A stretch of 56,846 nt of DNA. Source: Ignavibacteria bacterium (lineage in GTDB: Bacteria; Bacteroidota; Ignavibacteria; Tepidaquicellales; Tepidaquicellaceae). This document shows positions 198-56,846 of this stretch, one piece after another (within the stretch, counting starts at the first letter, position 1; every line of letters begins with the position of its first letter). The DNA lies in assembly GCA_016873795.1 (NCBI GenBank), contig VGWA01000004.1, positions 1 through 56,846 of the forward strand, written 5' to 3'. Position numbers and translations under genes: made by a program. The notes under the pieces were generated by a model. That model ran no database searches. It was not told where the DNA came from and saw only the letters and a program-made list of their open reading frames with translations.

Positions 198-2636
198 TTA
201 CTTCTGGTCACTTTCCCAGACTTTGTTTATTTCGTCTTTAATTTTTTGTTCGTAGATTGATATTAATTTTTTATTAGCGTCAATTAGTTTCTGCTCGTCA
301 TCAAGCCGTGCAACAATTTCTTTCTGTACTTCAAGCGGAGGAAGAGGGAGTAGAAAATCTTGTACTATTTTTTGTGATATATTTGGTTGAGCACCACCAA
401 CTGAAAAATTAATGAATGTTTTTGTTTCTTGCTTCAAAATATGATATAAAAATTCTGGTATTATTATACTATTGGGAAAAATACCACAAACGGCTTGATT
501 TGTAGAGGCGTAAATTTTCAAAATTCCAACTTGACCAACAGTAGCACCATATAAAGCGATTAAAACTGTATTGGGAGGAAATAATTTTGCAGATGACTCT
601 TTTAATCCTAATTCAGTAATTTTCTCTTCAGTATTATATATATAACCAGCAGATACCTCTCCACTTTTAACCCAATGAATATTACCATTCTCGAAATATT
701 CTTTTTTATTTCTTAATGGCGTTCCTCCCGATGAAGTTTTTAAAACTGAACCCAATCTTTCCATTTTCCATTTCGGGTCTATTTTTATTTGGGGTTTGTA
801 GTTTTCGACAATTTGCTTTGCTGAGTTAATTATTTTCTGGTATCCGTCAAGTTCGGCAACAATTTCTTTCTGTACTTCAAGCGGAGGAAGAGGGATTAGA
901 AAATTTTTATAATCTCTTGGATAAACATGGGGTTGTGCACCACCTTGTTGTAATTTATAAAAGTCATCTTGTTTGGATTTTAATATAAAATATAAATATT
1001 GACAGTTTAATTTATTTAAATCTTTCGGTTGAATTGTTGAACAATCGGAAGCAAATATTGGATTTTTAAAATAATTAATAAAACCAGCATATGCACCTGA
1101 AGAACTAACAGTAATCACTTCTCCACACCTATTTGCTTCATTATGATAATATGCTGCTGTTTGACCTCCTGCAATTACCGGTATATCACCTGCTTTAATA
1201 TTTTTTTTAGTTATTGATGACCCTCTTTCGATTTTACACAACTCACCCAACTCTACCATTTCCCATTTTGATACTATTTTATTTGTTTCCTTGTACCTCT
1301 CTCCCGACAGATTATATTCTCCTGACTCGGAAAGTTTTGATTTTGGAACAAGAACTGCCATCGGCTCGTATTTTTTTATCTGAAAATCTTTATATCCTGA
1401 CTTATATTCTAATAAGATTTTCACTGCAACAGGTAAATCGTTTTTTTCAATTTCTCTTCTCTGTGCACCTAAATCATATCCGTCATTTTCAACTTTAACA
1501 AATAATATATTATCGGAATGTTTTGCTATTGTGCGGTCAATCAACAATACACTCGTTTTCACTCCCGCATACGGATTAAAAACACCTGAGGGAAGTGAAA
1601 CAACCGCAAAAAGATAACCTCCGTCAACAAGCATTTTCCTTAATGATTTATATGCATTCGCAGACTGAAAAATTATTCCTTCAGGAACTATAATACCTGC
1701 TTTTCCTGTCGGATTTAAATGTTCGCATATATAATCCACAAACAACACCTCCGAACGGTTTGCCTGTATGGAAAAACGTTTATGAGGTCTTATACCACCT
1801 TTTGGCGTCATAAACGGAGGATTCGCAAGTATGCAATCATAATCATCATCCCATTTTTCCAGACTCGTAAGAGTGTCATATTCGTGAATTTTCGGTTCAG
1901 GAAACTCATGCAAAAACATATTCACTCTCGATAGCCGAACCATATCATGCGAAATATCATATCCGACAAAATTATTTTTTAAATTTTGCCTTTCTTTTAA
2001 AGTCAAAAGCGAACCCGATAATTTAGAATTTTTTGCAGTATTATTCCGCATAATATATTTATAGGCAGAAATAAGGAATCCCGCAGTTCCGCATGCAGGG
2101 TCTAAAACTTTATCGGTTTTCTGAGGCGAAATTATTTCAACAATAAAATCTATTATATGTCTCGGAGTTCTGAATTGACCTGCCTCACCTTGCGAACCGA
2201 GAACCGATAAAAGATATTCAAATGCATTACCGAGTTCCTCGCTGTGAGAATAAGAAAACTCATTTATCTGAGATAAAAACAATAACAATACTTCAGGATT
2301 TCTGAACGGAAGAAATGCACCTTTAAATATATCACGGAAGAAACCCGGAAGGTTAGGATTTAAATTCATTTTTTCAAGTCCTTCGCCATAGAGCATTACA
2401 CGCTCAAGACCAGACAATTTCAAATCAATTAAATTTTTCCAATCATATTTCTCATATTCTCCGATAAAGAATTTCGGCTTTCCACCTATCGAGACATTCT
2501 GTGCATCAATATCACTCATAAATTTGTATATCAGGGCAAGAGTTATTTGCTCTACCTGACCTGTGGGAGTCGGTATTATCCCTACGAGAATATTACGAGC
2601 ATTATCTATTTTTTGTTTTATTTCGGATGTAAGCAA
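198..2636 (-). CDS. Type I restriction-modification: fused methyltransferase and specificity subunit (HsdM-HsdS)
   Basis: Residues about 1-455 are an N6-adenine DNA methyltransferase: HsdM-type helical N-terminus, GQFRTPRHI at 153-161, SAM-binding motif I DPACGTAGF at 179-187 and catalytic NPPF at 272-275. The rest is two HsdS target-recognition domains, starting near residues 456 and 622, each ending in PLPPLEVQKEIVA plus a helical spacer. Separate HsdM and HsdS are the norm, so one 812-residue M-S chain is unusual. The start is TTG: an in-frame TAA lies four codons upstream, and later Met codons would remove conserved N-terminal sequence. It follows hsdR by 45 bp and would methylate the site that the HsdR complex cuts. 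No separate hsdS is visible in the window. Confidence 0.93.
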   Translation of the reverse strand: MLTSEIKQKIDNARNILVGIIPTPTGQVEQITLALIYKFMSDIDAQNVSIGGKPKFFIGEYEKYDWKNLIDLKLSGLERVMLYGEGLEKMNLNPNLPGFFRDIFKGAFLPFRNPEVLLLFLSQINEFSYSHSEELGNAFEYLLSVLGSQGEAGQFRTPRHIIDFIVEIISPQKTDKVLDPACGTAGFLISAYKYIMRNNTAKNSKLSGSLLTLKERQNLKNNFVGYDISHDMVRLSRVNMFLHEFPEPKIHEYDTLTSLEKWDDDYDCILANPPFMTPKGGIRPHKRFSIQANRSEVLFVDYICEHLNPTGKAGIIVPEGIIFQSANAYKSLRKMLVDGGYLFAVVSLPSGVFNPYAGVKTSVLLIDRTIAKHSDNILFVKVENDGYDLGAQRREIEKNDLPVAVKILLEYKSGYKDFQIKKYEPMAVLVPKSKLSESGEYNLSGERYKETNKIVSKWEMVELGELCKIERGSSITKKNIKAGDIPVIAGGQTAAYYHNEANRCGEVITVSSSGAYAGFINYFKNPIFASDCSTIQPKDLNKLNCQYLYFILKSKQDDFYKLQQGGAQPHVYPRDYKNFLIPLPPLEVQKEIVAELDGYQKIINSAKQIVENYKPQIKIDPKWKMERLGSVLKTSSGGTPLRNKKEYFENGNIHWVKSGEVSAGYIYNTEEKITELGLKESSAKLFPPNTVLIALYGATVGQVGILKIYASTNQAVCGIFPNSIIIPEFLYHILKQETKTFINFSVGGAQPNISQKIVQDFLLPLPPLEVQKEIVARLDDEQKLIDANKKLISIYEQKIKDEINKVWESDQK
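310..895. repeat. 40-bp perfect direct repeat flanking the second target-recognition domain
   Basis: Positions 310-349 and 856-895 are identical over 40 bases. Both copies encode the end of a target-recognition domain (PLPPLEVQKEIVA). The copies are 546 bp apart, exactly 182 codons, so recombination between them would remove one domain without shifting the frame. Confidence 0.95.
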
Positions 2637-2681: not shown

Positions 2682-5192
2682 TCAAATAAACGTATTAATA
2701 TTGATATTATCTTTTATATACAGAGGAATCTGAGTTAATCTTTGTTCGCCGAGACGAATTAGAATATCCTGATAAATCGGGTCAGCAGAAAAATATTCAA
2801 ATTCCTTTTTATTAATTTTCGTTCTTGCTTCCTCATCAAGTATATACAGTCTGAAAAATTCCTTAATTTCATAATAAAGATTCGGAGGAATATCAAATGC
2901 AACTTTAAATTTTTCGAACTCTTCCTCAACAATATCTTCCTTTGTCTTGAATTTTAACAGTCTGCCAAATATTTTATCAAGTATTTCCCATAAAGAAATC
3001 CTGCGGTCAATATTATAACTTTTTCTCAGTTTTTCCAGATTAAAATATTCTTCCGGTTTATCGAACAATTTTTCTTTAACAAATTTTTCCATTTCGACAT
3101 AATTACCTGAATCAACTGCTTCTTTAAATTCCTTATCAAATGTATAAGTTTCTTTTACCTTTGTCTCAAATTTTTCAGAATACAATTCCCTGTCAATCCG
3201 CATAATATCTCCGTTGAAAGTCAGAATTTCGATTGTCTTTAACGGGTCGGGAATATTTATTTCTACATCTACAATCGGAGGAGGAGGCGGAGGAGGAGGT
3301 TTTTTTCTGCCTCTTTCGGGAGGAAGTTCAATTACATCATCATAAGGGAATTTTTCTTCAAAGTACTCGCAATTAGCAAAGAAATCGAAAAGTTTAAAAT
3401 TCTCTTTTTCAAATACAATTTCCTCGCTATCTTTTTTATATTTAAACTTGAATTTTCTTGTACCTCTTCCTCTAATCTGAACAAAATCAGTCGGGGAAAA
3501 TATCGGTCTCATCAGACAAATATTCAAAATATCCTGACAATCATAACCCGTCGTCATCATTCCTACTGTTACGCTAACACGAGTTTTTGATGATTTATAA
3601 CCTTCAAGAAAATTCGTATATCCGTTTAGATTATTATTTGAAAAGTTGATTGTCATCCTCTGCGATTCGGGAATATCCGAAGTAATTTGAACAGCAAAAT
3701 CCGAATTATATTTTCCCGGATACATCTGATGGGCATATTCATTCAGGATACTTGTAATTTTTCGGGCATGTCTGCGGCTGACACAAAATATTATAGTTTT
3801 TCCAATTTCGCTTGTTATCGGGTCTTTTAAAGCATTCTGCATAAATGTATTTACAAATTCCTGATTTGTCTTTTCGGAAAAGAAACGTCTCTCAAAATCT
3901 CTCTGTGTAAATATAATTTCCTGTTCGTCTTCATCTTCCGTCTCAACCTGAACGGCATATCCTTCATCTGAAAGCAGTTGAGTAGTTATTTCTGTTCTGC
4001 AGTCAATTGCCAAAGGATTAACAAGGAAACCTTCTTCCACTCCTTTTTGCAGCGAATACCTGTAAGTCGGGATACCGCTTTCGCACCCGAATGTCGTATA
4101 AGTAGAAAGTAAATTTCTCCGTTCAAGTTCACGAGGGTCGGCATCCGATACATTTAAATTTTTTAAATAATCTTTTGGAGTTGCAGTCAATCCGAGTTTA
4201 TATCCGATAAAATATTCGAATATTGCACGAGAATTTCCTGATATAGAACGATGTGCTTCGTCTGAAATAATTAAATCGAAATCGAAAGGAGAAAATATTT
4301 TAAGAAACTTATTATCATAAGCAATGCTCTGTATAGTTGTAACAACAATTTGCGCATTCCTCCAATCATCACGGTTTTCCTTAAAAATCTTAGTTGTATA
4401 ATCAGGCGTAAGATAGTTAACAAAATTTTTCCTTGCCTGCTCTTCGAGTTCAAGGCGGTCAACGAGGAATAATATCCGTTCGGCATTTCCTGTTTTGAGA
4501 AATAATTTGATTAATGCGGCAGAAACAAGTGTCTTACCGGTTCCCGTAGCCATTTCAAACAAAAAGCGATTATTTCCTTTACTTGCGGATGACTGTAAAG
4601 ATTGAATTGCTTCAATTTGATATTCACGAAGAAAATTAAGATTATGTTCGGAAACATATATTTCACGGGTTGCCTCATTGACATACATAGGTTCGGAATT
4701 ATAATACGGATATTTTGTCGTAGTTATATAATCTTTTTTTACTGATGCATCAGCAAGTTTATTCGGGTCGGGTTTGAATGTATGTTGATGTAATAAAGTT
4801 TCAATACGGGGGAAATAAGATATTCGGGTAGGATTTCCTGTCTCCTTATCCCAGAAATAATGAATATTACCATTTGACAAAATTATAAATCTAACTTTCA
4901 GCGAATCGGCATATCTTCTTGCCTGTTCCTTTCCGGAAAGAGGGTCTTTATCCTCCGATTTCGCCTCAAGTATGCAAATCGGGAAACTCTTATCATCAAG
5001 TAGCAGATAGTCTATATAACCTTGTGTAACTTTCTCATAATTTTCCCCGAAATCATTTAATAATTCATCTGTAATTTTGACATTATTTTCAAGAATTACA
5101 TTAACACGACCTTTATCATTATCGAAAAAACGCCATCCTGCTTCTTCGAGAAGTTTATTTATTTTAATACGTGCTTTTGCTTCCTTTTGCAT
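2682..5192 (-). CDS. hsdR: Type I restriction endonuclease subunit R (HsdR), DNA translocase and nuclease
   Basis: The ATP-driven translocase and nuclease of the type I system. The N-terminal nuclease shows D61, then E76-A-K78, and a QxxxY motif at Q90-Y94, the usual HsdR/RecB-like arrangement. The SF2 helicase motor follows with Walker A ATGTGKT at 215-221, DEAH at 311-314, a TATP motif III and an RGRGTRKF motif VI. A run of eight prolines at about 631-638 joins the motor to the C-terminal helical region. At 836 residues it is shorter than EcoKI HsdR but all catalytic motifs are present, so it should be active. It is the first gene of a two-gene minus-strand operon with the HsdM-HsdS fusion. 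The ATG at 5190-5192 is the natural start. Confidence 0.95.
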   Translation of the reverse strand: MQKEAKARIKINKLLEEAGWRFFDNDKGRVNVILENNVKITDELLNDFGENYEKVTQGYIDYLLLDDKSFPICILEAKSEDKDPLSGKEQARRYADSLKVRFIILSNGNIHYFWDKETGNPTRISYFPRIETLLHQHTFKPDPNKLADASVKKDYITTTKYPYYNSEPMYVNEATREIYVSEHNLNFLREYQIEAIQSLQSSASKGNNRFLFEMATGTGKTLVSAALIKLFLKTGNAERILFLVDRLELEEQARKNFVNYLTPDYTTKIFKENRDDWRNAQIVVTTIQSIAYDNKFLKIFSPFDFDLIISDEAHRSISGNSRAIFEYFIGYKLGLTATPKDYLKNLNVSDADPRELERRNLLSTYTTFGCESGIPTYRYSLQKGVEEGFLVNPLAIDCRTEITTQLLSDEGYAVQVETEDEDEQEIIFTQRDFERRFFSEKTNQEFVNTFMQNALKDPITSEIGKTIIFCVSRRHARKITSILNEYAHQMYPGKYNSDFAVQITSDIPESQRMTINFSNNNLNGYTNFLEGYKSSKTRVSVTVGMMTTGYDCQDILNICLMRPIFSPTDFVQIRGRGTRKFKFKYKKDSEEIVFEKENFKLFDFFANCEYFEEKFPYDDVIELPPERGRKKPPPPPPPPIVDVEINIPDPLKTIEILTFNGDIMRIDRELYSEKFETKVKETYTFDKEFKEAVDSGNYVEMEKFVKEKLFDKPEEYFNLEKLRKSYNIDRRISLWEILDKIFGRLLKFKTKEDIVEEEFEKFKVAFDIPPNLYYEIKEFFRLYILDEEARTKINKKEFEYFSADPIYQDILIRLGEQRLTQIPLYIKDNININTFI

Positions 5193-41938: not shown

Positions 41939-44900
41939 TTATTTTACCAGTACCATTTTCTTCGACATCGAATATTCCTGACCGTTTCCGCTTGCTACAA
42001 ATCTATATATATAAGTACCGCTGGCGAGACTGCTGCCGTTAAGCGTTACGGTATGGAATCCTGCTTTTCTCATATCGCTGTTAAGAAGTTTCATAATTTC
42101 CCTTCCGGCGATATCATAGATAACGATGGTCACTCTGCTGTCGAAAGGCAGCGAGAAATCTATTTTCGTAGTAGGATTGAACGGATTCGGATAGTTTTGC
42201 GATAAATCATATTTCGTCGGCAATCCGACTTCTATATCGCCATCGAGTGTATAATATGTATAATGACCGTTATTATCTATTTGTTTGAGACGGTAATTAT
42301 ATTTGCCCGAATTAAGTTTTCTGTCGATAAACGAGTAACTTACAGGTTTACTTGAATTACCGGCGCCGTTGACAAAACCGACTCTTGTCCAGTTATTCAT
42401 TCCCTTGTCTGTTCTCTGAATCTCGAAACCGCTGTTATTTCTTTCTATATTTGTTATCCAGTCAAGTTTAACATCTCTCTGATTAACCGAAGCCTGAAAT
42501 CCGGCAAGAGTAACCATCAGCGGAGCTTCTTCGCTTGAATACGAGAAATGAGAGAATGAAGTCAAGCCGTAGACTTTAACCGAATCGCCCGGTACCCACA
42601 ACTGATACTGTCCGGCACCGGTTCCCTGTACGAGATACGTCAGCCAGATAGAGCCTCCGGAGGGTTTCTTGGCAAGCCGCAGAGTAGCAATATTCTGAAT
42701 TTTCAGTAATGTTGCAGGGTCAAAGTGCAGACAAATATCATAAGAATAACTTTCTCCGCCAATTGCTTCGAAATCAAAGTATCCGCATCCGTAGAAAGCG
42801 TCGGTTGTATCTCCGCCCGGATTTCTACCGGAGAAATATCTTGGTATAATAGTCGGGAACGGACCTGTGCCGTGCCAGGTTATTGTAGCAAGGAGTCTGC
42901 CTCCGAAGTAGAACAATGTAACCGCTCCGTCACCGGGAGTTCCCACCTGAGTTCCTTCAGGAGGAGTAGTAGAAGCATCGGGAGTAAATTCATAGGCACC
43001 AATGTCTGTTGGACCCGTATTTACCGCAACACTTCTCGGATTTGCAAGAATATCTTCATTAACAGATGCTATTTGAGTTCCTGTTCCGTTCAGATGCCAG
43101 CAGGAGTTATCCGTTATATCGGGCTGTAATAAATTTGTTCCCGTAAATACAACCAGAGCGGAAATTGAATTTGCATCCTTAGATGAATTTGTTTTCCACT
43201 GGTCAAATGTAAGATTTGATGTTGTTGTCCATCTTCCGACAGTACTGCCTGCCGAATAGAGGTTATTATAATTTGATAATGTCCATCCTGAAGCACCTAT
43301 TGCATTATCAACACAAAGATGCGCACCTGTTCCGCCTGTTCTTGTATTTAATAAGTAATTATTCTGCATAGCGGTAACATTTGATGTTGTGGAGTTACGG
43401 TAATATGCGGAAGTATTCGCGCTTCCGCTTGATACAGTTCCTGATATTCTAAATGTATTATAATACCAGTTTCCAGTATTATTGTCGCTGTAATCATACA
43501 CTCCGTAAATAATCACATCACCCGTTATATCCGAGCCAAGGTCAAACACATTATTTGAATATGTCCAGCTTGCTCCGAGCCAACTGTTATAACCGCAAAC
43601 CATCGAGGTATTATTTGTCGAGTTTGTATTAAATCCGTAGATTTTATTCTTTGCAACGGTTCCTGAAGATGTCGAGGAATTATTAAATATTCCCTGCAAT
43701 TTAATCTGAGTACCTGCGGTATTTGGATTTCCCGTAATGTTAAAGATGTTATTTCCAAATATCCAGTTTGTAGTATTGCCGTTTGAATTCGTATTATAAA
43801 TTCCCGAGAATACATTATGACCGCTGGCATTTAAAGGAGCATTCGCATCGCTGTCAAATACTTTTACAGTGTTGGTAGAAATATTATAACCGCCGGTACC
43901 TGCGTTAGATATTCCGGCAAATGTAGCGGTTCCGGAAGTCCCTGCCGTTAATGAAATATCGGTTACAGTATTTCCGGTACAGGTTAACGTTCCGGCTGTA
44001 TTAGTCGTCATCGCAATACCAAACGAATTTCCGCCGGTGGCGTTAGAGAATATATTTCTTACCGTATTATCCGTAACAGTGTTGCTGTATGCTGAATTGG
44101 AGGAGTTCGTGATGGAAATTCCCGTAAATGCAATACTCCCTGAAGTAGTTGGATTAATTTTAATATTTGCAACGGTATTTCCGGATATTGTTCCTGCCCA
44201 GCCGCTTGAAATTCCAGTTACCGGACCGACTGTTTCCTGAGATATATTAGGTATGATAACATTATCGGTATTAGAAACTAAATTGTTATTGACGGAATTT
44301 TCGTTTTCTGCCTGATTTACTCCGGAAATTGATTTACTTACTGCATCTTTTTTAATCCTGTCTGCTTCATCTCCCTTTTGTTCGGACACGTGTTTTGTAA
44401 CAGATTCTATTTCTTCAAGAGCGTTAGTAATTGCTTCGAAGTCACATTGGCTTCGTTTACCGGTAAACATTCTGATGTCCTGTTTGATTTCACCGGTTTT
44501 TAAGTTATTTGTTTCGCCTCTATAATTATTAATAATGTTGTTATTTTGAATAACATCATTTTTTGTAATTTTCGTAATTTTATCGAGTGAACTCGCAGGA
44601 CTTCCTACGGTATTATTTGTAATATTGGGAGTTCCGCTTGTTCCGTGGTATATACCGATAAACGTGCAGTTTCTCGTACTTGCTTTAAGCAGCTGCACAC
44701 CACCGATAGTATTATTCGAAATCGAACCTGTACCCGCTCTGACGTCAATTCCTTCAACAACCGAATAATATGTAGCACTTGCACCGTTTGCTGTAAATTT
44801 GATGCTCGGTGAAGTAGTTGCATTTACTGTATTATCGCCGATTGTATTGTTTGCTATACTAACGCTTCCAGCTGTTGTCCGGCTGAATATTCCGCAGAAT

Positions 44901-47900
44901 AGAATTGAGTTCGCGGCTGCGTCGCTTGTTGATGTTAGGTTGTAATTTTGTATTTTGTTATACGATACGGTAGTTGCCGAGGTTTGAGATGAAATATCGA
45001 ATATATCAACAACATAAATACCGCTTGAAGTAGTTGTCAGAGTATATGCCGAGCCGCCGCAGTTCGCCGCCGAACCGCCGATATTGTTGTGCATAATAGT
45101 ATGTCCGCTACCGCTACCCGAAGCAGTTACAACAATCATCTGCGCAAGTCCCTGCGCGGAATACGAAGTAGTTCTGTAAATACTATTGGAATCTATAGTC
45201 ATATTGTTGCATCTTCCGAATGCTATTCCTCTCGGGTTAGTAGATGCTGCATTTCTTCCGAAGTCATAAATATTATTTTTTCTGATTATAATATTATCGT
45301 TTGTCATCGAAGAATTATTCTGTCCATAAATCCAGACACACATATTGGGATTTTCACCGGCATAATTTTTTATGTTATTATTATAAATCAAAATATCATC
45401 ATTACCGGAAACAAGATTGGTTCCCTGTACGCTAATTACGCCGCCCGAAGTACTTTCATTATTACCTTCGATAGTCAGATATTTCAAACTTATATTTTTG
45501 GCATCATTTTGAATAAGGAATGTTTCGGCAATAGTTGAAGCAGTTCTTGTATTTCTGATTGCCCATTCCTTATTGCCTTCTCCGCCGGCTCTGCCGTCGA
45601 ATATAATATTATCCGCACCATTGAAGTATATCAATGGATTTCCGGTACCCGGGTCACCTGCTGTTTCCAATCCCGAAGCTTCACTTTGCGGTCTGAATGT
45701 AGCATAGAAACTTCCTCCGGACATCGAGAATTGCGTAAATGTGATAGGAAATACTTCGGTGTCGTCCGAGTAATCGGGTTGTAGTTCGAATATTATATCT
45801 TCCGTAAGGTCGGAAACGTTTAGTGTAGCCACTGCGGTAGTAATATCTGCAAAGGTAGCGTCATATCCGCCGTAGGGTCCGCTCGGACCGATTGCAAAGT
45901 AATATCCTGTTATAGCACCTGTAATCAAATATGAATACGGAGTCGGAGGAGTGATTATAGTATTTACATCGGTTGCAACTACTCCGGCAGGTTTAGATGC
46001 GATATTAACCGGAGTGCATATATCCTGTGCGATTACGTAGTAATACACAACATCGCTCTGTGCAACACCGCCCATATCTGAATTAACAATTACAAAATCC
46101 CAGGTTCCGTTTGTTCCGCTCCCGGATACAAGAGTACCCGGTTGTGAATACCAGGTACCGTTATTTTTATTGTAATATATTCTCGGTACGAGCGTTCCGG
46201 AAGTCGGTACACCCGTAGCGTCGGATATATTCGCAGTTAATGTTCTGTTGCTTGTAGAAGAAGTGTTTGAGAGTAGCGTATAAGTGATATCGGGTCCCGC
46301 TACATCAACGCCTTCTTCGTATGCTCCGATTGAAGGTGTTGTTCCGTCCCTTGTTACACCGAGTATATCGGTTGTTATACCGGTAATAGGAGTACCGGCA
46401 TCAAGCACCTGGGAAGATGTAGACGGTCTCAAATCAAGACTTGATATATATAACGGGTCTGATGAAATCGAATTTGCATCCTGTCCGCTGGCAGACTGCC
46501 ATCCTGCAAACGTCTGGTTTCCGCTGTAATAGCCGATTGTTAAACTGTTAGATGAGTACAAATCATTATAGTTCGAAGTTATATTAGTTACATCGCCGGC
46601 ATAGTAAGCATAATGTCCGGCTGTACCGCCGCTGCCGTTTTGTCTGACATCGCAAAATATGTTATCTTTTGTAATAACTGTTCCCGCGGCACTTTTCCAT
46701 ATACCATACGAACCTCTTGTGTTGCTTGCTTCTGCTGTACCGGATATACAAACGCTATTATAATAATTGTTATATGTACCGGTAGCGCCGGTAACACCGA
46801 TGCCTATCAGGAATAAATTATGAGACTGTCCATCATTTCCTAAAGATATTACATTATTATATACGTTATAGCCATATGTGGTTGCAGTACCATACTGATA
46901 TATTCCGCCTGCTGCATAAGCATTTGAAGTATTTGCTGCTCCTGTATTGAAACCTATATTATATATCTGATTATTGTAGCAATTAATTGCATAATCACCC
47001 TGTAAGTAGATTCCATAAACCCACGGTGCTGCGGTCGAATGAGTTGACCTTATGTTTTTAATTGTATTATTTGCAATATTGGATGTTGTATAAGCGTGAA
47101 TACCGTAAGGTGATGAAGTTCCGGCTATAACGACACTATCTATTGTGTTTCCGGTTAAGGTTCCGCAATTATAACTTCCGTCATATAGATAGAGACCTTT
47201 AAATATCCCTGTACCTGTATTAGTCTTTAAAATATTTTTAATGACGTTACCGTGTACTTCTGCAGGCGTTATATCTCCGACTGTCAGGTACATTCCGTAA
47301 AATGCTACTGCACCTGAGTTTTCCCAATTTCCTCCTGTGCAATATGGTCCTTTACCTCCGATATAATTATTCAATACTGAATCAGCGTTAGATGATGACG
47401 AATTAATGTCTATCGGATATGCAGTTCCTGTGGGCGGTGTTGTTCTGTTGTTATACAAATGATTTCCCTTAATTACCCATCCGTCACCGCTGTTCAAATA
47501 CACATAAACTCCCACGTAAGTGAAGTTAGAAATATAGTTTCCTTCGATTCTGTTGTAACTATTCAGTTTGGATGCAGTTCCGTACGAATATATTCCGCTG
47601 TAGTAACTTGTCGCTATATCCACGCTGTCTCTGATAACATTTCCTTTAATTGTATTGTAACTGTTACCGTCAGCCGCCGTTGAGGCACCTATATGGATTA
47701 ATCCGCTCAAAGTTGTTGTCGATGAAGTATTTCTTCCGATAATCCGGCAATTTTCGATTATGATATTATTAGAGCCGTTGATTAATTTAATTACCGGAGC
47801 GGTTGTATGATTATTATAAATCCAGAGGTTTTTAGTTCCCGCCGAAGACGGGTCTTCGCCGTCGATATTAAAATACGCCGCACCGTCGAACAGGAAAATC

Positions 47901-50900
47901 GCGGTAGAATTTTCGCCGAAAATTCTCATAGAAGTTGACGATGCTGGTTTAATCGTAACTGTATTATCCGCACTTGCGCCGTTAATAGCAGTGACTGTAA
48001 TCGGGAATATCTCGGACGGATAATCGGTATCCACAAGGGAGAATATTACGTCATCAAAGATTCCTCTTTCAACAGCATCGGCTACTGCCTCCGTAATAGT
48101 CGTATAGACGCCTCTCGGCTCGTCGCCTCTGGTTCCAGATTTTTTAAAGATTGGGTCATCCGAATAGACAACTGTCGGTCCTTCATAAGGTTTATCGCCT
48201 TCGTACAGCACCGCATATTTTTCTTCTACTTCTATTGTTTTATACGCCGGTGCTTTTTGTTTTTCGTCTCTTGTTATGTTTTTATCTTCCGTTCTATAAT
48301 TATTATTGTCAGACTTTTCAGATTTTGTTTTTGAATTATCGGAACCAAAGTCAAGTATATCAACAGATTCCGGTGTGTTATCATTGACTACATCCTGCTC
48401 TGCATCATTCTGCACTTCAATCTGCATCTGTACTTTTCTTGTGAAGAATTTATAATACAGGTTTTTTCCGGTATACTTATTAAAATCGCCAATACCGACG
48501 GTATAAGTACCGCCGAGAGGTGCACCTGTGACTTTATACTGATTCGGAGTTGTCGGTGCGGAAGTAATGGATGAAACCGAAGTTCCTTCAAATCCGGCAG
48601 AAGGATTCGAGCCTACATTCGGAGTAGTTTCCAAATCCTGTGCCACGACAAAATACTGTACATAGTCACCCTGCGATACCGCGCCGCCGTATATAATCGA
48701 ATAATTAATAGTAAAGTTTGTCGGAGAAGAGCCGACGTTTGCGGTCGTATATTTCCATCCGTTATCGGATGAAGTATTTCCGACGAACGCATTTGCATCG
48801 GTTGATTTCTTATAATAAATTCTCGGCAGGTTAGTCCAGTCAACCCCGCTTAATGCATCCGTTATAGTAACGTCGGATAAAGTTCTGTTGGACGTTGAAG
48901 TTGTATTTGCAAGCGGTGTATATGTAATTTCAGGCGGAGCACCGTCTCTGCCCTGTTCGTATGCACCCATAGAAGGAGTTGTTCCACTTCTGGAAATGCC
49001 GAGTATATCGGTAGTAATACCCGAAATCGGAGTACCCGCTGCAAGAACAGGCGAGCCTGTCTGAGGCTGGAGCACTGTTGTCGAGTTGTAGAGCGGGTCG
49101 GCATTGAGTGAATTTCCGTCACCGCCAGAAGCACCCTGCCAAGCTGCTAATGTTATCTGGTCGCCGCCTAAATAACCCAGTATCCCCTGTGGTCCGTTTG
49201 CATAGTAATCATTGTAATTTATATTAGCAAACGATGTGTTTGGAGCCGTTGAATAAATTGCATAGTTTTTGTCTGTTTCAACTGTTGTATTGTTCATACT
49301 GTTCTGGAAGATATTATTCCTCAAATCAACATTGGTAACCGTAGTTGTATTGAATAAAATTGCCGCAGTCAAAGTAGCAGTACTCCTTGCATATTCTCCG
49401 CTTAAATAGACTGAATTGTAATATATATTAACTCCGCCGGTTGTTCCGTCGAAATACATACCGACCATAGATGAACCGGCAAATGTTGACCAGCCGTCGC
49501 CTCCTATTTTATAGATAACGTTATTATCGAAAGTAAGTCCGCAGTTTGTACTTCCGACGCTAATATACATGCCTCTTCCGCCGTATCCTCCGGTACCTGT
49601 ATAAGTTATATTATTTATGTTGTTTTTACTTATCTGCGAATTCAACACATCTGTACCCAAATTTAATCCTATCGGAGTAGTCGTTGCGCCTATCTGATTG
49701 AATATCGTATTAGACAGGATAGTTGCACCCGTACAGTAGGCAAGATAAGTTCCATATTTTCCGTTATACTCCGAAGCATTTGAAGAGCCGATATAGTTTT
49801 CTTCAATCGTTAGTCCGGTTGAAGGATTTGTTGTTGTTCCGCTGACACCGATACCGCAGAATGAACGGCTGATATTGTTATATTTAATTGTATTATTATT
49901 ATTATCGGCGCCTGTCGAAGGAGTAGAAGTCAGTGTTGAGCCGCCGATATGAATGCCGTATGTATAAGTGCTTCCGGTTCCTGCAGTACCTGCTTTTATG
50001 TTACAATTTCTTATCGTGTTATTTGTAGCACCGAGTCCGTTGCCTAAACTTATAAGCATTATTGCACCCGTAGCACTTGAGGTGCTTGTATTTTCGATAG
50101 TCAGGTAATTTCCGCTGCCGCTGTATCTGCCGTCGAATGTAACCCTGTCGGCGCCGTTAAGTCTGATTAATCCCCCCGCATAAGTACCGGAGAGTGTTCT
50201 TTGTGTTGCGGCATCGGGTTGAATTGTAATTGTATAATTCGAGCCCTGAGGTTCTTCCGAAAACTGATTCAATGCAACAGTTCCCGGCTCGGTAATATTA
50301 CTTATAATGTTAACTGTTAAATTACCGGTCAGTACTTTACCGTTAATATCGGCGAAGAGTCCGTCTGTTCCGGTGAGAGTAGTATAATCTCCGGCTGTCC
50401 CGACGGTTTTAGTACCGCTGATACCGCCCAAAATCGTGTAACTTCTGATAGTGCCTGTCAGCGGGAATGCAGAAGAAGTAAGTTGTACATCAGACGGAGT
50501 GGAATTGAATACTCCGGAGTTAATACCGACATAAGGCGGAACCTGCAAATCCTGAGCAACGATGAAGTATTGTATCACATCATTAATCGAAACCGAGCCG
50601 CCGTTGATGATATTGTAATCAATCGTAAAACTGAAAGGCGTAGAGCCGCTCGGGGTTTCGGTATATTTCCATCCGTTATCGGATGAAGTATTTCCGACGT
50701 AAGTATTATTGTCGGTAGATTTCTTATAATAAATTCTCGGTTTATAATCCGAAACGTTTACTCCGCTCGGGTCGGTAATTTCGGCAAAATCATCAAGAGT
50801 TCTGTTTGATGTCGAAGTTGTATTTTGCAGTGCAGTATAAGTAATAGTCGGACCGGAAACATCCGCACCGTTTTCATAAGCACCGATTGACGGTGTCGTA

Positions 50901-53900
50901 CCGCTTCTTGTAACGCCGAGATAGTCGGTTGTAATTCCCGTTATCGGCGTACCTGCGGCAAGCACCGAAGCACCGAGATTCGGTTGTAAGTTAGTATTAG
51001 ATTGATATTCCGGATTTGCATTCAAAGAATTTCCGTCTCCTCCCGAAGAAGTTGCCCATTCAGTTAATGTCGTTTTATCCGCTCCGTAATATCCGAGTAT
51101 CCCGTATGTTCCGCTGGCATAATAATCGTTGTAATTTATTGTTCCGAATGTCGTTCCCGTTACTACATAAGCACAGTAACTTTTGGAACCTGAATAAACA
51201 AATTCTGTCGAGTTAGTAAATATATTATTGCGCAGGTCAATTCCCGTAGCAGTACTCGAGGTTATCACAAATGCCGCAGACATTCCAGCACTTGAACCTC
51301 CCGAAGGGGTACCAAAAAGATTTACAGAATTATAATAGATTTTATGATTCGTTCCGCCGGTTATTCTTATTCCGAATGCGTTGTAAGTTGTACTTATTGC
51401 CGAATAATTTGACGTTATCAAATCATAAATTATGTTGTTATAAATCTTAATTCCCGTAACACCCGTACCTGAAGCAATATTGATTCCGTATGTTCCCCAT
51501 CCTGATGTACTTGTTGATCTTAATCCGTATATTTTATTTTGATAAATATCCGCATCTGTTACGTACTGTCCGATATCTATTCCAGCATTATTGACAGAAG
51601 TGGACAACTGCAGGTTGAATATTTCATTTTTGGATATTACGGGAGAGGTTGCATTTTGTATATCTACTCCCTTAAATAATACATAATCCGATGCTGAACT
51701 GGAACCAATTTTATTTTTGGTTATATTCAATCCGTTGAGTTGACCGGTGGTTCCTGTTCCCGCTCCTCTTGCGTATATTGCATAATAACATTTTATAATT
51801 TCGTTATTTTGTATAGTAAGATTATCGTTATCGGCACCTGTACCGGAAGTAGAAATCGAAGTACCGCCGACGAAAATACCAAATGTAGAAGTTACCGAGT
51901 TCGAGCCGGCTTTAATCATACAATTCTTAATAATGTTATTCGTAGCCCCTGCGTTTTCTCCAAGCGACGAAACCCATACTGCGCAGGTATTAGTTCCCGT
52001 TCCTGTGTTTTCTATTGTTAAACTCCTATCGGTTCCTTTCGAGGTATTCGAGCCGTCGATTATGACATAATCGGCTCCGTTTAATTTAATGACTGCCGAT
52101 GTTGACGAGCCGCTGATTGTCGGGGTAGTGCTTCCCGCAGGTTTAATAGTGAGAGTATTAGTTGCATCCGCACCGGGATTCTGATTAATTGTAATCGGCA
52201 GTGTTTCGCCCGAATATGTAGCATCAATTAATGAAAATACAACCGGTCCGGATTGATATTTAGAATTATAGTCCGCAACGGCTGCCGTGAGTGTAGCGTA
52301 ATCTCCGGCTGCTCCGACAGTAAATGTACCGCTGATTGAAGCCACAATCGTGTAATTGTTGATAGTTCCGCCAATCGGGAAATCGCCCGATTCAAGAGCA
52401 CAGTGAGATGGTGTTTTAGCAAACGTACCCGAGTTAATTCCGACATTTGGTGTCGGAGCAAGGTCTTCAGCCGTAACGAAATACTGGATTACGTCGCCTT
52501 CAGAAACCGAGCCTCCGCCTCCGCCTCCGCCGTTATACAGAATCGAATAATCAATCGTAAAACTGAAAGGAGATGCATCACCGGGTGTTTCCATCCATTT
52601 CCATCCGTTATCGTCTGCCGTATTTCCGACGTATGCATTGTTATCCGTAGATTTTTTATAATAAATTCTCGGTTTGTAATCGTTAGTATTCACTCCGCTT
52701 GCATCGGTAATTGCCGCAAAATTGTTCAATTCCCTCTCTGTTCCGGCAGGAATATTACCAAGAACCGTATATATAATAGTAGGCGGCGACTGGTCGGACG
52801 GGATACCGGCAAATTCGTCCGCACCGACGTCCGGTGCGGTTGCGGGATAATCCACTCTATCGGGATATCCTGAGTTCGGATATCTTGCATGTCCGTCGTA
52901 GTCGTCCGTGATGTTCGGCGTACTGACAGTCGAGCCGCCGCTTTCGCATTGAGTATTTTGCGTTGTTTTTAAGTGCAGGTCATAGGGAGTTGATGTAATA
53001 TCCTCAAACGGCGGCAGTTCCCGGAATGATGCGGCATCCCTTGGAGTAACCCTTGATTTATATGTAGCCATTGTCTGGTCTGAGTTCGTTCCGTCATTGA
53101 ATATTAGATTACTTGCACCGGGTGTTCCTCCATGAAAATCATTATAATTTGATGTTGAAGCATAGTTTGTTAAAGTTGTAGAACTTCTTCTGTATGCAAC
53201 TGTCAATCCCGTTCCTGCGGGAGTCGAATTGTTTACAATAATATTATTTCTCATATCAAGTGCTGCAGTAGTAGAAACCGTACTTGTCGTATGATAAATC
53301 CCCGAACTGCCGAAGGGTGTGCCAGAAGAACTTGCGTTTAAAAATATAGTATTATAATATAGTCCAATTGTAGATAATGTAGTTGTACTTGTGATATATA
53401 TGCCATTAACCTGAGTAAACGGCGTTATTGTAGCACCTGTTGTTGCAGTTGCATTTAAATCACTTATGTAGTTATTATAGACATAATTGGTTGTACCTGC
53501 ACTGATTGTTATTCCGCTGACTAAAGTACCTGTACCCGTTGAAGGAGTACTTATTCCGAATATTCTGTTTTTATAAACGTTTGTTAATGTACCGCCTGTT
53601 AATGCAATACCTCTTATTACCGGACTTGCTGAACTTGTTGCAGCACCTATGGTAATATTTGTAATATTATTATTATAAATATTATTTCCGTTTCCTGCAG
53701 CAACTGCAATACCGCTGATTACTGGTGAACCTGTTATTATTCCCGTAAAATTCATAGCTGTAAATGTATTGCTGTAAATCTGGAACGGTCCGGTTGCTCC
53801 GACGTTAAAACCTATCATTGATGTCGGAGAAGTAGTGGATGAAGTTAGTGACAAAGAGTTTTCTGTCATTGTATATGCACCTGCACCTGTTGACGTTGCC

Positions 53901-55717
53901 TGATAACCTACTACAGTCGGTCCGGCAGAACTTATTGTGACAGAATTATTATTCATAGTACCGTATGAATAACCAGCCTGTATGCCAATTGAAGTACCTG
54001 AATGCGTTCCGCTAATATTTATTGTATTAGAGTTAATTGCTTTAACAGTTCCTGTTGCACTAACACCACCTAAAGTGTTAATTCCGTTTGCAACAGACGT
54101 TCCTGACAAATTAGTAAACGTAATTGCATTATTTGTGATAGTATGAGCAACAGTTGAAGGGGTTGTTGATTCATTTGTGCCTGTTATTGTTCCTGATGCG
54201 GCAACCCTATCTATTGTTATTGTGTTTAGATTAATAGTAATTCCGACAGTAATAGTGCCTGTTGTATGATTAACACCAATACAAGTACCTGTACTGCGAA
54301 TAGTTGAACCTGTTGTGAGTAACTGGTTAGAATTAACGTTAACTGTTCCAGAAGAAGCTCCAACATCAATATAAGTCATTGCACCGGAGCCGTAAGATGC
54401 AGTGCCTGTCGGGGCGCTTTGTTTAAATGTAATAATATTGCTATTAACTGTAACCGTAGTACCTACACCTGCAGCTGTTATTCCTGTTACTGCACGGGTA
54501 ATAGAACCTGTTGTTGTAGGATTTTGGGTTGTAGTAATAGTATTTGTATTAAGTGTATTCGTAGCTGAGGCATAGTTAGCTCTAATACCCATGATAGCTG
54601 CTGATGCAGCAGCAACTGTGGTGTTTGTAATATCTATGGTATTATTACTTCCAACTATTGTACCTGTGCTTAAACCATATCCATAATCCATTCCATAAAT
54701 TGCTGTCGTTCCGTTGTTTGTTAAAGTGATACTATTGTTGCTCCAGGTAGTTGTATAAGTAACGCCTGTTGCCGCAGTACCAATCGTAGTAACAATACCG
54801 CCTAAACCGCCTGATTGTGCATAGGTCAAGCTGTTAGATGCAATAGTATTATATCTAACATTGCTTCCCGCTCCGCCATTACGGAATGTAATACCTGCTG
54901 GAAGAACTGCGGAAAAGCGATTTAAGTTTGTGAATGTTGCTGTCGTTGCATTACCGAAAGTGATATTATTTCCGGTTCCTGCTGAGGTACCGCCTATATC
55001 AATACCGCTTTCAAAAACTGTTGCGGTAATTGGCGGACAAATGAAATACATTCCATAGGCTACACTGGAAATTGTATTATTATAGAATTTATTATTGGAG
55101 TTTGTACCTGTTGTAGCCGATGCTTCCAATGTTCCATGTGTAGAGGAATTTGAGGATGTTGATAAAATACCTATTGCATTCGGATAAGTTGAATTTAGCG
55201 ATATGATATTATTTTGGATTGTGTTATTCTGAGCACCATTTGTGGCAGTCGTCAGAAAAAGGGCAACTCCATATTCAGTCATTGTCTGAGAACCAATAGG
55301 AGTAATAACTGTATTGCCTGAATTTTCCTGCATAGTAAAATTCTGGATTGTGATATAATCACCTCCAATAATTTTAAAAATAGCATCCGATTGAACCCCG
55401 GCAACTTGTAAACCGGCAGTAATCGTAGTGGTCGTTGTGCCCTGAATGATGATTGTGTTCGTAGCATCGCCGGTCGCAGTTATTGAATAACCGCCTGCCG
55501 GTGCAGTTTCACCGCCAGAGGCCGCTGTAACAACTACCGGACCGGTGATTGTTAAACCATTTACAGCGGTAATTGCCGCTGCCAATGAACTGAACGGTGA
55601 GCCTCCAATAGGAGTTCCACTCATTGTAACAGTTGTACTTACTTGTGCAAAAGCACTTCCGCCCGTTATCAAGGACAGAATTAAAAGTGCCGCAAAAAGT
55701 AAAAATGACTTTTTCAT
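41939..55717 (-). CDS. Giant modular beta-helix surface protein with T9SS sorting domain (4592 residues)
   Basis: A signal peptide (MKKSFLLFAALLILSLITGGSAFAQ) is followed by about five right-handed parallel beta-helix modules, roughly 26-960, 1130-1600, 1767-2250, 2537-3120 and 3272-4250. They are rich in Asn, Thr, Ser and Gly, with repeated NNTI, YNNNI and GIYI rungs. Several open with a TVGTAGDYTTLT-type sequence and close with GTTPSIGAYE. Between modules lie related beta domains (ITYTxLxNTxSTSNRTL, PRIYYKKSTDxN, VIQYFVVAQDL). Two charged insertions, about 2425-2535 and 3709-3834, break the pattern. The C-terminus has an Ig-like part and the T9SS domain (YDLSQNYPNPFNPTTKIDFSLP, ending SMSKKMVLVK). 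It is probably a surface adhesin or polysaccharide-binding fibre; no catalytic domain is recognised. Confidence 0.93.
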   Translation of the reverse strand: MKKSFLLFAALLILSLITGGSAFAQVSTTVTMSGTPIGGSPFSSLAAAITAVNGLTITGPVVVTAASGGETAPAGGYSITATGDATNTIIIQGTTTTTITAGLQVAGVQSDAIFKIIGGDYITIQNFTMQENSGNTVITPIGSQTMTEYGVALFLTTATNGAQNNTIQNNIISLNSTYPNAIGILSTSSNSSTHGTLEASATTGTNSNNKFYNNTISSVAYGMYFICPPITATVFESGIDIGGTSAGTGNNITFGNATTATFTNLNRFSAVLPAGITFRNGGAGSNVRYNTIASNSLTYAQSGGLGGIVTTIGTAATGVTYTTTWSNNSITLTNNGTTAIYGMDYGYGLSTGTIVGSNNTIDITNTTVAAASAAIMGIRANYASATNTLNTNTITTTQNPTTTGSITRAVTGITAAGVGTTVTVNSNIITFKQSAPTGTASYGSGAMTYIDVGASSGTVNVNSNQLLTTGSTIRSTGTCIGVNHTTGTITVGITINLNTITIDRVAASGTITGTNESTTPSTVAHTITNNAITFTNLSGTSVANGINTLGGVSATGTVKAINSNTINISGTHSGTSIGIQAGYSYGTMNNNSVTISSAGPTVVGYQATSTGAGAYTMTENSLSLTSSTTSPTSMIGFNVGATGPFQIYSNTFTAMNFTGIITGSPVISGIAVAAGNGNNIYNNNITNITIGAATSSASPVIRGIALTGGTLTNVYKNRIFGISTPSTGTGTLVSGITISAGTTNYVYNNYISDLNATATTGATITPFTQVNGIYITSTTTLSTIGLYYNTIFLNASSSGTPFGSSGIYHTTSTVSTTAALDMRNNIIVNNSTPAGTGLTVAYRRSSTTLTNYASTSNYNDFHGGTPGASNLIFNDGTNSDQTMATYKSRVTPRDAASFRELPPFEDITSTPYDLHLKTTQNTQCESGGSTVSTPNITDDYDGHARYPNSGYPDRVDYPATAPDVGADEFAGIPSDQSPPTIIYTVLGNIPAGTERELNNFAAITDASGVNTNDYKPRIYYKKSTDNNAYVGNTADDNGWKWMETPGDASPFSFTIDYSILYNGGGGGGGSVSEGDVIQYFVTAEDLAPTPNVGINSGTFAKTPSHCALESGDFPIGGTINNYTIVASISGTFTVGAAGDYATLTAAVADYNSKYQSGPVVFSLIDATYSGETLPITINQNPGADATNTLTIKPAGSTTPTISGSSTSAVIKLNGADYVIIDGSNTSKGTDRSLTIENTGTGTNTCAVWVSSLGENAGATNNIIKNCMIKAGSNSVTSTFGIFVGGTSISTSGTGADNDNLTIQNNEIIKCYYAIYARGAGTGTTGQLNGLNITKNKIGSSSASDYVLFKGVDIQNATSPVISKNEIFNLQLSTSVNNAGIDIGQYVTDADIYQNKIYGLRSTSTSGWGTYGINIASGTGVTGIKIYNNIIYDLITSNYSAISTTYNAFGIRITGGTNHKIYYNSVNLFGTPSGGSSAGMSAAFVITSSTATGIDLRNNIFTNSTEFVYSGSKSYCAYVVTGTTFGTINYNDYYASGTYGILGYYGADKTTLTEWATSSGGDGNSLNANPEYQSNTNLQPNLGASVLAAGTPITGITTDYLGVTRSGTTPSIGAYENGADVSGPTITYTALQNTTSTSNRTLDDFAEITDPSGVNVSDYKPRIYYKKSTDNNTYVGNTSSDNGWKYTETPSGSTPFSFTIDYNIINGGSVSINDVIQYFIVAQDLQVPPYVGINSGVFNSTPSDVQLTSSAFPLTGTIRSYTILGGISGTKTVGTAGDYTTLTGTDGLFADINGKVLTGNLTVNIISNITEPGTVALNQFSEEPQGSNYTITIQPDAATQRTLSGTYAGGLIRLNGADRVTFDGRYSGSGNYLTIENTSTSSATGAIMLISLGNGLGATNNTIRNCNIKAGTAGTGSTYTYGIHIGGSTLTSTPSTGADNNNNTIKYNNISRSFCGIGVSGTTTNPSTGLTIEENYIGSSNASEYNGKYGTYLAYCTGATILSNTIFNQIGATTTPIGLNLGTDVLNSQISKNNINNITYTGTGGYGGRGMYISVGSTNCGLTFDNNVIYKIGGDGWSTFAGSSMVGMYFDGTTGGVNIYYNSVYLSGEYARSTATLTAAILFNTTTVTNVDLRNNIFQNSMNNTTVETDKNYAIYSTAPNTSFANINYNDYYANGPQGILGYLGGDQITLAAWQGASGGDGNSLNADPLYNSTTVLQPQTGSPVLAAGTPISGITTDILGISRSGTTPSMGAYEQGRDGAPPEITYTPLANTTSTSNRTLSDVTITDALSGVDWTNLPRIYYKKSTDANAFVGNTSSDNGWKYTTANVGSSPTNFTINYSIIYGGAVSQGDYVQYFVVAQDLETTPNVGSNPSAGFEGTSVSSITSAPTTPNQYKVTGAPLGGTYTVGIGDFNKYTGKNLYYKFFTRKVQMQIEVQNDAEQDVVNDNTPESVDILDFGSDNSKTKSEKSDNNNYRTEDKNITRDEKQKAPAYKTIEVEEKYAVLYEGDKPYEGPTVVYSDDPIFKKSGTRGDEPRGVYTTITEAVADAVERGIFDDVIFSLVDTDYPSEIFPITVTAINGASADNTVTIKPASSTSMRIFGENSTAIFLFDGAAYFNIDGEDPSSAGTKNLWIYNNHTTAPVIKLINGSNNIIIENCRIIGRNTSSTTTLSGLIHIGASTAADGNSYNTIKGNVIRDSVDIATSYYSGIYSYGTASKLNSYNRIEGNYISNFTYVGVYVYLNSGDGWVIKGNHLYNNRTTPPTGTAYPIDINSSSSNADSVLNNYIGGKGPYCTGGNWENSGAVAFYGMYLTVGDITPAEVHGNVIKNILKTNTGTGIFKGLYLYDGSYNCGTLTGNTIDSVVIAGTSSPYGIHAYTTSNIANNTIKNIRSTHSTAAPWVYGIYLQGDYAINCYNNQIYNIGFNTGAANTSNAYAAGGIYQYGTATTYGYNVYNNVISLGNDGQSHNLFLIGIGVTGATGTYNNYYNSVCISGTAEASNTRGSYGIWKSAAGTVITKDNIFCDVRQNGSGGTAGHYAYYAGDVTNITSNYNDLYSSNSLTIGYYSGNQTFAGWQSASGQDANSISSDPLYISSLDLRPSTSSQVLDAGTPITGITTDILGVTRDGTTPSIGAYEEGVDVAGPDITYTLLSNTSSTSNRTLTANISDATGVPTSGTLVPRIYYNKNNGTWYSQPGTLVSGSGTNGTWDFVIVNSDMGGVAQSDVVYYYVIAQDICTPVNIASKPAGVVATDVNTIITPPTPYSYLITGAITGYYFAIGPSGPYGGYDATFADITTAVATLNVSDLTEDIIFELQPDYSDDTEVFPITFTQFSMSGGSFYATFRPQSEASGLETAGDPGTGNPLIYFNGADNIIFDGRAGGEGNKEWAIRNTRTASTIAETFLIQNDAKNISLKYLTIEGNNESTSGGVISVQGTNLVSGNDDILIYNNNIKNYAGENPNMCVWIYGQNNSSMTNDNIIIRKNNIYDFGRNAASTNPRGIAFGRCNNMTIDSNSIYRTTSYSAQGLAQMIVVTASGSGSGHTIMHNNIGGSAANCGGSAYTLTTTSSGIYVVDIFDISSQTSATTVSYNKIQNYNLTSTSDAAANSILFCGIFSRTTAGSVSIANNTIGDNTVNATTSPSIKFTANGASATYYSVVEGIDVRAGTGSISNNTIGGVQLLKASTRNCTFIGIYHGTSGTPNITNNTVGSPASSLDKITKITKNDVIQNNNIINNYRGETNNLKTGEIKQDIRMFTGKRSQCDFEAITNALEEIESVTKHVSEQKGDEADRIKKDAVSKSISGVNQAENENSVNNNLVSNTDNVIIPNISQETVGPVTGISSGWAGTISGNTVANIKINPTTSGSIAFTGISITNSSNSAYSNTVTDNTVRNIFSNATGGNSFGIAMTTNTAGTLTCTGNTVTDISLTAGTSGTATFAGISNAGTGGYNISTNTVKVFDSDANAPLNASGHNVFSGIYNTNSNGNTTNWIFGNNIFNITGNPNTAGTQIKLQGIFNNSSTSSGTVAKNKIYGFNTNSTNNTSMVCGYNSWLGASWTYSNNVFDLGSDITGDVIIYGVYDYSDNNTGNWYYNTFRISGTVSSGSANTSAYYRNSTTSNVTAMQNNYLLNTRTGGTGAHLCVDNAIGASGWTLSNYNNLYSAGSTVGRWTTTSNLTFDQWKTNSSKDANSISALVVFTGTNLLQPDITDNSCWHLNGTGTQIASVNEDILANPRSVAVNTGPTDIGAYEFTPDASTTPPEGTQVGTPGDGAVTLFYFGGRLLATITWHGTGPFPTIIPRYFSGRNPGGDTTDAFYGCGYFDFEAIGGESYSYDICLHFDPATLLKIQNIATLRLAKKPSGGSIWLTYLVQGTGAGQYQLWVPGDSVKVYGLTSFSHFSYSSEEAPLMVTLAGFQASVNQRDVKLDWITNIERNNSGFEIQRTDKGMNNWTRVGFVNGAGNSSKPVSYSFIDRKLNSGKYNYRLKQIDNNGHYTYYTLDGDIEVGLPTKYDLSQNYPNPFNPTTKIDFSLPFDSRVTIVIYDIAGREIMKLLNSDMRKAGFHTVTLNGSSLASGTYIYRFVASGNGQEYSMSKKMVLVK
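48747..50699. repeat. 39-bp identical DNA repeat in the inter-module domains of the giant gene
   Basis: Positions 48747-48785 and 50661-50699 are identical over 39 bases and code for the same part of the inter-module domain (VGNTSSDNGWKYT). The DNA identity beyond protein need suggests recent duplication or gene conversion between modules. Confidence 0.9.
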
Positions 55718-56155
55718 AAATGTTAATTTAAAGTTATTAAAAATAATTTAAATTCCTTTTTGAGAAATAAATACTTATCGAAAAACATTATTAAAATGCA
55801 TTTCAGGTTAATAAAATATTACAAAACATAATCAAAATTAAATTTAGTTTATATAGAAAATTTTTAATTCAAGTGATTTTTTTGTAGGGGTATTCTTACA
55901 ATATTAATAGTTTTTTTTAACGCAAAGACGCAGGGGCGCAAAGCAATTAAAAAATTAAGAATAAAAAAAATAACACGGAGGAAAGAAACATGGAAAATAA
56001 TTAAAAATTAACAATGAAAAATTAAAGATAAGGGGAATTCAACGCAAAGACGCAGGGGCGCAAAGCATATAATATATAAAATATTACATATTGCATATAA
56101 CATGTAACATATAATTGATAAATGGGAGACAAATAGATTGAAAGTCAGGTCAGTG
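55718..56155. other. Intergenic region upstream of the giant gene
   Basis: AT-rich, with no gene. The promoter and leader of the giant gene should lie at 55718-55900. Two identical 27-base GACGCA-type elements occur at 55919-55945 and 56041-56067, then a low-complexity stretch of ATATAACAT type near 56067-56120. Confidence 0.7.
55919..56067. repeat. Two identical 27-bp elements with AACGCAAAGACGCAGGGGCG
   Basis: Copies at 55919-55945 and 56041-56067 are identical. Each contains three CGCAAAG/GACGCA-like steps. A degenerate relative is at about 21361-21380. They are non-coding and of unknown function. Confidence 0.85.
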
Positions 56156-56846
56156 ATAAGTGTTCGGAAAAGTAAGCCACGAATTAACACAAATTATTAC
56201 GAATCAAAAAAAGTTATATAAAAGATAAATGGCAAACAAAAAGACAGAGATAAGTAATCGGAAAAGTAAGCCACGAATTAACACAAATTATTACGAATCA
56301 AAAAAAGTTATATAAAAGATAAATGGCAAACAAAAAGACAGAGATAAGTAATCGGAAAAGTAAGCCACGAATTAACACAAATTATTACGAATCAAAAAAA
56401 GTTATATAAAAGATAAATGGCAAACAAAAAGACAGAGATAAGTAATCGGAAAAGTAAGCCACGAATTAACACAAATTATTACGAATCAAAAAAAGTTATA
56501 TAAAAGATAAATGGCAAACAAAAAGACAGAGATAAGTAATCGGAAAAGTAAGCCGCGAATTAACACAAATTATTACGAATCAAAAAAAGTTATATAAAAG
56601 ATAAATGGCAAACAAAAAGACAGAGATAAGTAATCGGAAAAGTAAGCCACGAATTAAACACTAATTATTACGAATTAAAAAAAGTTATATAAAAGATAAA
56701 TGGCAAACAAAAAGACAGAGATAAGTGTTCGGAAAAGTAAGCCACGAATTAACACAAATTATTACGAATCAAAAAAAGTTATATAAAAGATAAATGGCAA
56801 ACAAAAAGACAGAGATAAGTAATCGGAAAAGTAAGCCACGAATTAA
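56156..56846. repeat. 94-bp tandem repeat array, eight copies, running off the window
   Basis: Units begin ATAAGT and contain CGGAAAAGTAAGCCACGAAT. The CCACG anchor occurs at 56177, 56271, 56365, 56459, 56553, 56647, 56742 and 56836, so spacing is 94 bp except one 95. Copies are nearly identical along their full length; changes include CCGCG in copy 5, an insertion in copy 6, and a GTT/AAT difference after ATAAGT (GTT in copies 1 and 7). 94 is not a multiple of three, so it is not a protein repeat, and there are no variable spacers. Confidence 0.96.

Follow-up and report, generated by a model that had tools for sequence, protein, structure and literature searches.

The window analysed here is a stretch of 56,846 nucleotides (positions 1-56,846, forward strand, of contig VGWA01000004.1) from Ignavibacteria bacterium, whose genome (GenBank GCA_016873795.1) is a 2.7-Mb draft in 273 contigs. 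A fused hsdM-hsdS gene (MS; 198-2636, minus strand) lies at one end of the window, and the contig ends 197 bp past its stop. The gene begins with a TTG that agrees with the start of its homologues, and its 812 codons without a stop encode a single uninterrupted chain of 812 amino acids. The HsdM part (1275-2636, minus strand; approximately residues 1-454) contains the Pfam domain N6_Mtase at residues 133-454, with a score of 176 bits against a cut-off of 20.4. The motifs DPACGTAGF (columns 179-187) and NPPF (columns 272-275) are invariant across 31 sequences, and the protein thus has the N6-adenine methyltransferase with motifs I and IV of a Type I M subunit.

Two Methylase_S stretches (179.7 bits, Pfam cut-off 22) follow the M part on the same strand and represent two target-recognition domains, TRD1 (813-1271, E 2.1e-27) and TRD2 (261-773, E 7.4e-27). 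Between the motif that trails TRD1 and the start of TRD2 lies a central conserved region (774-855, minus strand) of coiled-coil helix and linker, which is kept in relatives and appears as a helix at residues 586-612 in the structural model. The chain closes with a conserved C-terminal tail helix (198-309, minus strand; residues 768-807 in the model), for which the family tail reads YEQKIKDEINK.W. The AlphaFold model of the whole chain (pLDDT 84, pTM 0.50) has individually good domains and a placement of M on S that is not settled, and Foldseek grouped the chain with the Type I M and S structures 7eew, 1yf2 and 2okc.

The gene is preceded, at a distance of 45 bp, by hsdR (2682-5192, minus strand), which encodes an EcoAI-like restriction and translocase subunit of 836 amino acids as a separate open reading frame and is the first gene of an R-MS pair. 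Both ResIII and HSDR_N_2 exceed their Pfam cut-offs in this protein, as in the adjacent HsdR of a Type I system, and its best NCBIfam match is NF046051 (the EcoAI/FtnUII family) at 250 bits, under the cut-off of 550 for that model. Elsewhere in the window, a single open frame of 4592 amino acids occupies 41939-55717 on the minus strand, and tandemly repeated units of about 94 bp fill 56155-56846 at the far contig end.

A natural M-S fusion family in Bacteroidota

Full-length fused homologues were found in many Bacteroidota and in one genome labelled Ignavibacteria. At E <= 1e-100, matches were present in 24 of the 391 genomes of a class sample and 20 of the 395 of a phylum sample, nearly all of them as fused frames, and an hsdR homologue with 51-58% identity stood on the same strand upstream of MS in all 20 neighbourhoods fetched. 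As judged from these sequences, a widespread R-MS family, carried by about 5-6% of the sampled Bacteroidota genomes, normally has M and S fused. An earlier note, made from the window sequence alone, had described the single 812-residue chain, which the uninterrupted frame with N6_Mtase and two Methylase_S stretches confirms, and had called M and S normally separate, which holds for Type I systems at large, whereas in the R-MS family fusion is the rule. Candidates for a natural M/S split near the family did not hold up, as G035 has a run of N at that place and G050 and G263 look frame-shifted, hence are poor evidence. In G263 (L111:6087-6202) the frame breaks in the first TRD-trailing motif, at a C-rich stretch CCCACCCCTCCC, which divides MS into M-TRD1 and TRD2; this break may mark a slippage site or come from a sequencing error.

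The neighbourhoods also differ in what lies around MS. Proteins of about 240 amino acids without a Pfam match are encoded directly behind it, sometimes overlapping, in L007 (3925-4647), L009, L013, L102, L105, L106, L110 and L111, and the corresponding slot in the window falls past the contig end. A DUF6602 protein is encoded in that position instead in L099 (8729-9418) and L100 (4978-5766). With one gene replacing the other, the third operon position looks like an exchangeable accessory slot. In Seramator thermalis (L013:5314-5772), an open reading frame that resembles an IS200-type transposase, as judged by its sequence alone, separates hsdR from MS.

With M and S in one chain, two TRDs and a separate HsdR, the window system has the build of Type IMS as named in Roberts et al. 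2012, which comprises one- and two-TRD forms (PMC3510504). An engineered EcoKI M-S fusion was active, with added free HsdM needed in vitro (PMC3510504), and engineered CC398-1 MSfus and M-half-S fusions were active as well, the half form reading a symmetric target as a dimer (Bower et al. 2018, PMC6158711). Those are laboratory constructs, whereas the window gene belongs to a natural R-MS family and, unlike the EcoKI fusion with its added HsdM, resides in a genome without a near free HsdM (nearest, 34%). Among solved structures, the best fold match and second-best sequence match was the Vibrio vulnificus YJ016 MTase (PDB 7eew), which likewise joins M and TRD in one chain but has one TRD where the window protein has two (22% identity). 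Type ISP enzymes (LlaGI) and AloI-type IIG enzymes also place a methyltransferase and one or more TRDs in a single chain (PMC3874165). Their nuclease is part of that chain, whereas HsdR here is its own open reading frame, and the single chain of nuclease, translocase, methyltransferase and TRD that defines Type ISP is not what the window encodes. The papers searched did not yield a named natural family of R-MS systems with two TRDs, though REBASE may well list such genes.

A 40-bp identity behind the two TRDs

A motif that we denote y stands behind each TRD. The copy behind TRD1 (y1; 856-895, minus strand), which encodes (I)PLPPLEVQKEIV, and the copy behind TRD2 (y2; 310-349, minus strand) are identical over 40 bp, in the same frame and with a spacing of 546 bp (182 codons), letter for letter as had been read from the sequence before. 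The identity is 46/47 when TTTCTA just upstream is included. With up to three mismatches allowed, these are the sole copies in the 2.7-Mb genome. Spacing between y1 and y2 ranges from 162 to 213 codons in relatives. Only y is an exact repeat, as the x region before the TRDs gives short matches such as AAATGG.AAATGG.

The repeat encodes a motif, PLPPLEVQKEIVA / PLPPLEVQKEIV, that is conserved in HsdS proteins, and since both copies specify the same 12 residues, protein conservation combined with codon bias could in principle produce the identity and be silent on recombination. However, all 12 codons common to y1 and y2 are identical, for which the probability from window codon usage is 8.3e-6 (about 5-8e-6 overall, by the codon usage taken), and a simulation with synonymous codons reached a run of at least 40 in 1 of 200,000 cases. 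Across 30 two-TRD relatives the same 36 nucleotides agree at only 18-29 positions, with 0-6 identical codons, and relatives that share 10 or 11 of the 12 motif residues reach only 24-29 of 36. We consider an origin from conservation and codon bias improbable on these numbers. In addition, no in-gene exact repeat longer than 16 nucleotides was found in the fused relatives or in 14 HsdS-type open reading frames examined from the same bacterial family, which rules out the 40-bp repeat as a feature of the R-MS family; among the relatives compared, it is unique to the window gene.

As codon identity goes beyond expectation and the repeat is absent in relatives, it is read as a recombination footprint and not as mere protein conservation. 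The 40-bp identity is, on this comparison of sequences, a property of the window gene that exceeds what protein conservation gives, and it suggests that recombination or conversion took place fairly recently. Family consensus gives an indication of its direction. In nine genes, the window gene included, y1 is PLPPLEVQKEIVAE, the typical family motif behind TRD1, and the motif behind TRD2 differs in the family, for example PLPPLATQQAIVAE or PLPPLEVQSRIVDK. The y1-type sequence PLPPLEVQKEIVA is carried at y2 by the window gene only. Probably, therefore, either y1 was copied onto y2 or TRD2 moved in from a TRD1 position and brought the motif behind it along, a direction that is taken from the consensus and not from an ancestral state. 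The window TRD2 has a relative at the TRD1 position in another genus (L058 TRD1, 52% identity).

TRD replacement and one-TRD forms among relatives

Codon-wise DNA comparison of relatives identified mosaic genes. Between L007 and L013, M and TRD1 are common, TRD2 is unrelated, and identity returns in the tail; the same pattern is seen between L050 and L054. Between L009 and L013 both TRDs differ, with M, the central region and the tail alike. A comparison of both domains among related genomes, which the earlier note had advised, therefore gave the pattern expected of exchange, with M near-identical and one or both TRDs replaced. Related TRDs with approximately 50-63% identity also occur in both positions between species, each represented by one genome. 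Four genes (L007, L009, L013 and L049) have one spurious extra "TRD" from the M-S junction, so that their TRD2 is numbered 3 and some cross marks are unreal; cross-position relationships are claimed here only from genes with exactly two motifs.

One-TRD fusions exist as well, namely L055 (about 643 amino acids from the homologous start), L056 (649) and L057 (624). On a tree of the M part, L055 and L056 fall within the two-TRD genes of one genus on very short branches. Their DNA tracks the central motif of their two-TRD siblings at about 90-95% over approximately 57 nucleotides and then departs into a tail of their own. Because of this tail past the breakpoint, the one-TRD relatives are not simple deletions between two identical motifs. 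A protein of about 411 amino acids without a Pfam match is encoded behind both one-TRD fusions at L097:5253-6488 and L098:404-1636. Taken together, the sequence comparisons make it well supported that this is a Type I-MS system diversifying by TRD replacement, and that the window gene could lose or exchange its second domain in frame, as had been foreseen, is realistic given that relatives show both swapped TRDs and one-TRD fusions.

This behaviour resembles domain movement (DoMo) in the hsdS genes of Helicobacter pylori and Streptococcus pyogenes, in which domains move or are lost through repeats of 19-53 bp on either side of the TRDs (Furuta et al. 2011, PMC3077401). Common to both are a repeated motif, tens of bp long, behind the TRDs, TRD replacement, cross-position relatives and one-TRD alleles. 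In DoMo, however, HsdS is separate, x and y are both repeats, and the variation is between strains of one species, whereas here S is fused to M, y alone is exact, and the variation is between species. Within the window gene, the exact 40-bp y lies behind each TRD and no corresponding exact x precedes them, so that a clean two-crossover movement has one good anchor only.

The earlier note had suggested phase variation, and a locus that switches specificity often within a population would fit a direct repeat within the size range that recombines in other hsdS genes, as well as the TRD exchange seen in the family. Switching Type I loci of the SpnD39III type, which also change specificity through hsdS recombination, have inverted repeats, typified by a length of 20 bp or more, between several hsdS genes and often a recombinase (Atack and colleagues 2020, PMC7394358). 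Unlike these, the window has a direct repeat inside one gene, with no second hsdS seen. We found no inverted exact repeat of at least 22 bp in the window and no second hsdS or recombinase at the locus, although the contig end limits this view to 197 bp past the gene. The genome yielded no donor copy or silent TRD cassette and no further copy of the motif, and the rest of the gene has no genomic matches above chance level. Moreover, deletion between direct repeats is one-way and cannot be reversed. Frequent switching is therefore quite unlikely, and the suggestion of phase variation is not supported. An assembly artefact is very improbable as the source of repeat or fusion. In its favour are the position of the gene, 197 bp short of a contig end in a 273-contig draft, and the 40-bp length of the repeat, which is close to that of k-mer overlaps in assembly. 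However, dozens of independent genomes, single-contig ones among them, have the fusion, and the alignment to the family runs on through the repeat across both TRDs and the tail, in frame and with normal spacing.

The best explanation overall, which we regard as probable, is an R-MS system whose TRDs are replaced, moved or lost at flanking motifs, the 40-bp repeat being the footprint of one such event. On this reading, the window gene would supply modification and specificity for a Type I-like restriction-modification system, with HsdM joined to a complete two-TRD HsdS in one protein and hsdR as a separate gene. Conserved motifs flanking the TRDs would serve as homologous crossover points at which TRDs are exchanged and the M part is kept. 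We infer that the event took place in the window lineage and that recombination of the RecA type was its agent. The repeat could have arisen by gene conversion of the TRD2-trailing motif by the TRD1-trailing one, or a TRD2 block may have come in from a TRD1 position with the motif that trails it. While present, it would be a substrate for an in-frame deletion of 546 bp, giving a one-TRD enzyme of 630 residues that is expected to dimerise on a symmetric target; this predicted product has the same build as the one-TRD relatives. As relatives swap TRDs without any in-gene 40-bp repeat, the repeat is not required for exchange, and it seems to record a past exchange rather than to serve as a dedicated switch.

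Implications of a fused M with two TRDs

In its class, the window gene is a natural Type IMS member with a real and statistically strong recombination footprint at the TRD-trailing motif. Fusion and TRD shuffling are both of known kinds, and beyond them the window gene represents a restriction system of the usual sort. What was engineered as Type IMS thus exists in nature as well, widespread among Bacteroidota and with either two TRDs or one, and the fused M-S format allows TRD replacement.

Type I methyltransferases contain two M per S, and the complete Type I enzyme is an R2M2S1 complex that cleaves in an ATP-dependent manner and places 6mA at a bipartite target; the fused gene supplies one M with two TRDs per chain. 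Enzyme activity and stoichiometry are here presumed from the gene; a native dimer of such chains, with four TRDs in all but only two of them on DNA at any one time, is conceivable but unlikely. If it did form, one gene could give more than one target specificity without a change in DNA, and TRD loss at the repeated motif would fix one specificity. A single M facing two TRDs is equally puzzling in AloI (PMC3874165). The R-MS family therefore offers a natural test bed for how one M serves two TRDs, and for a proposed path from Type I to Type II enzymes.
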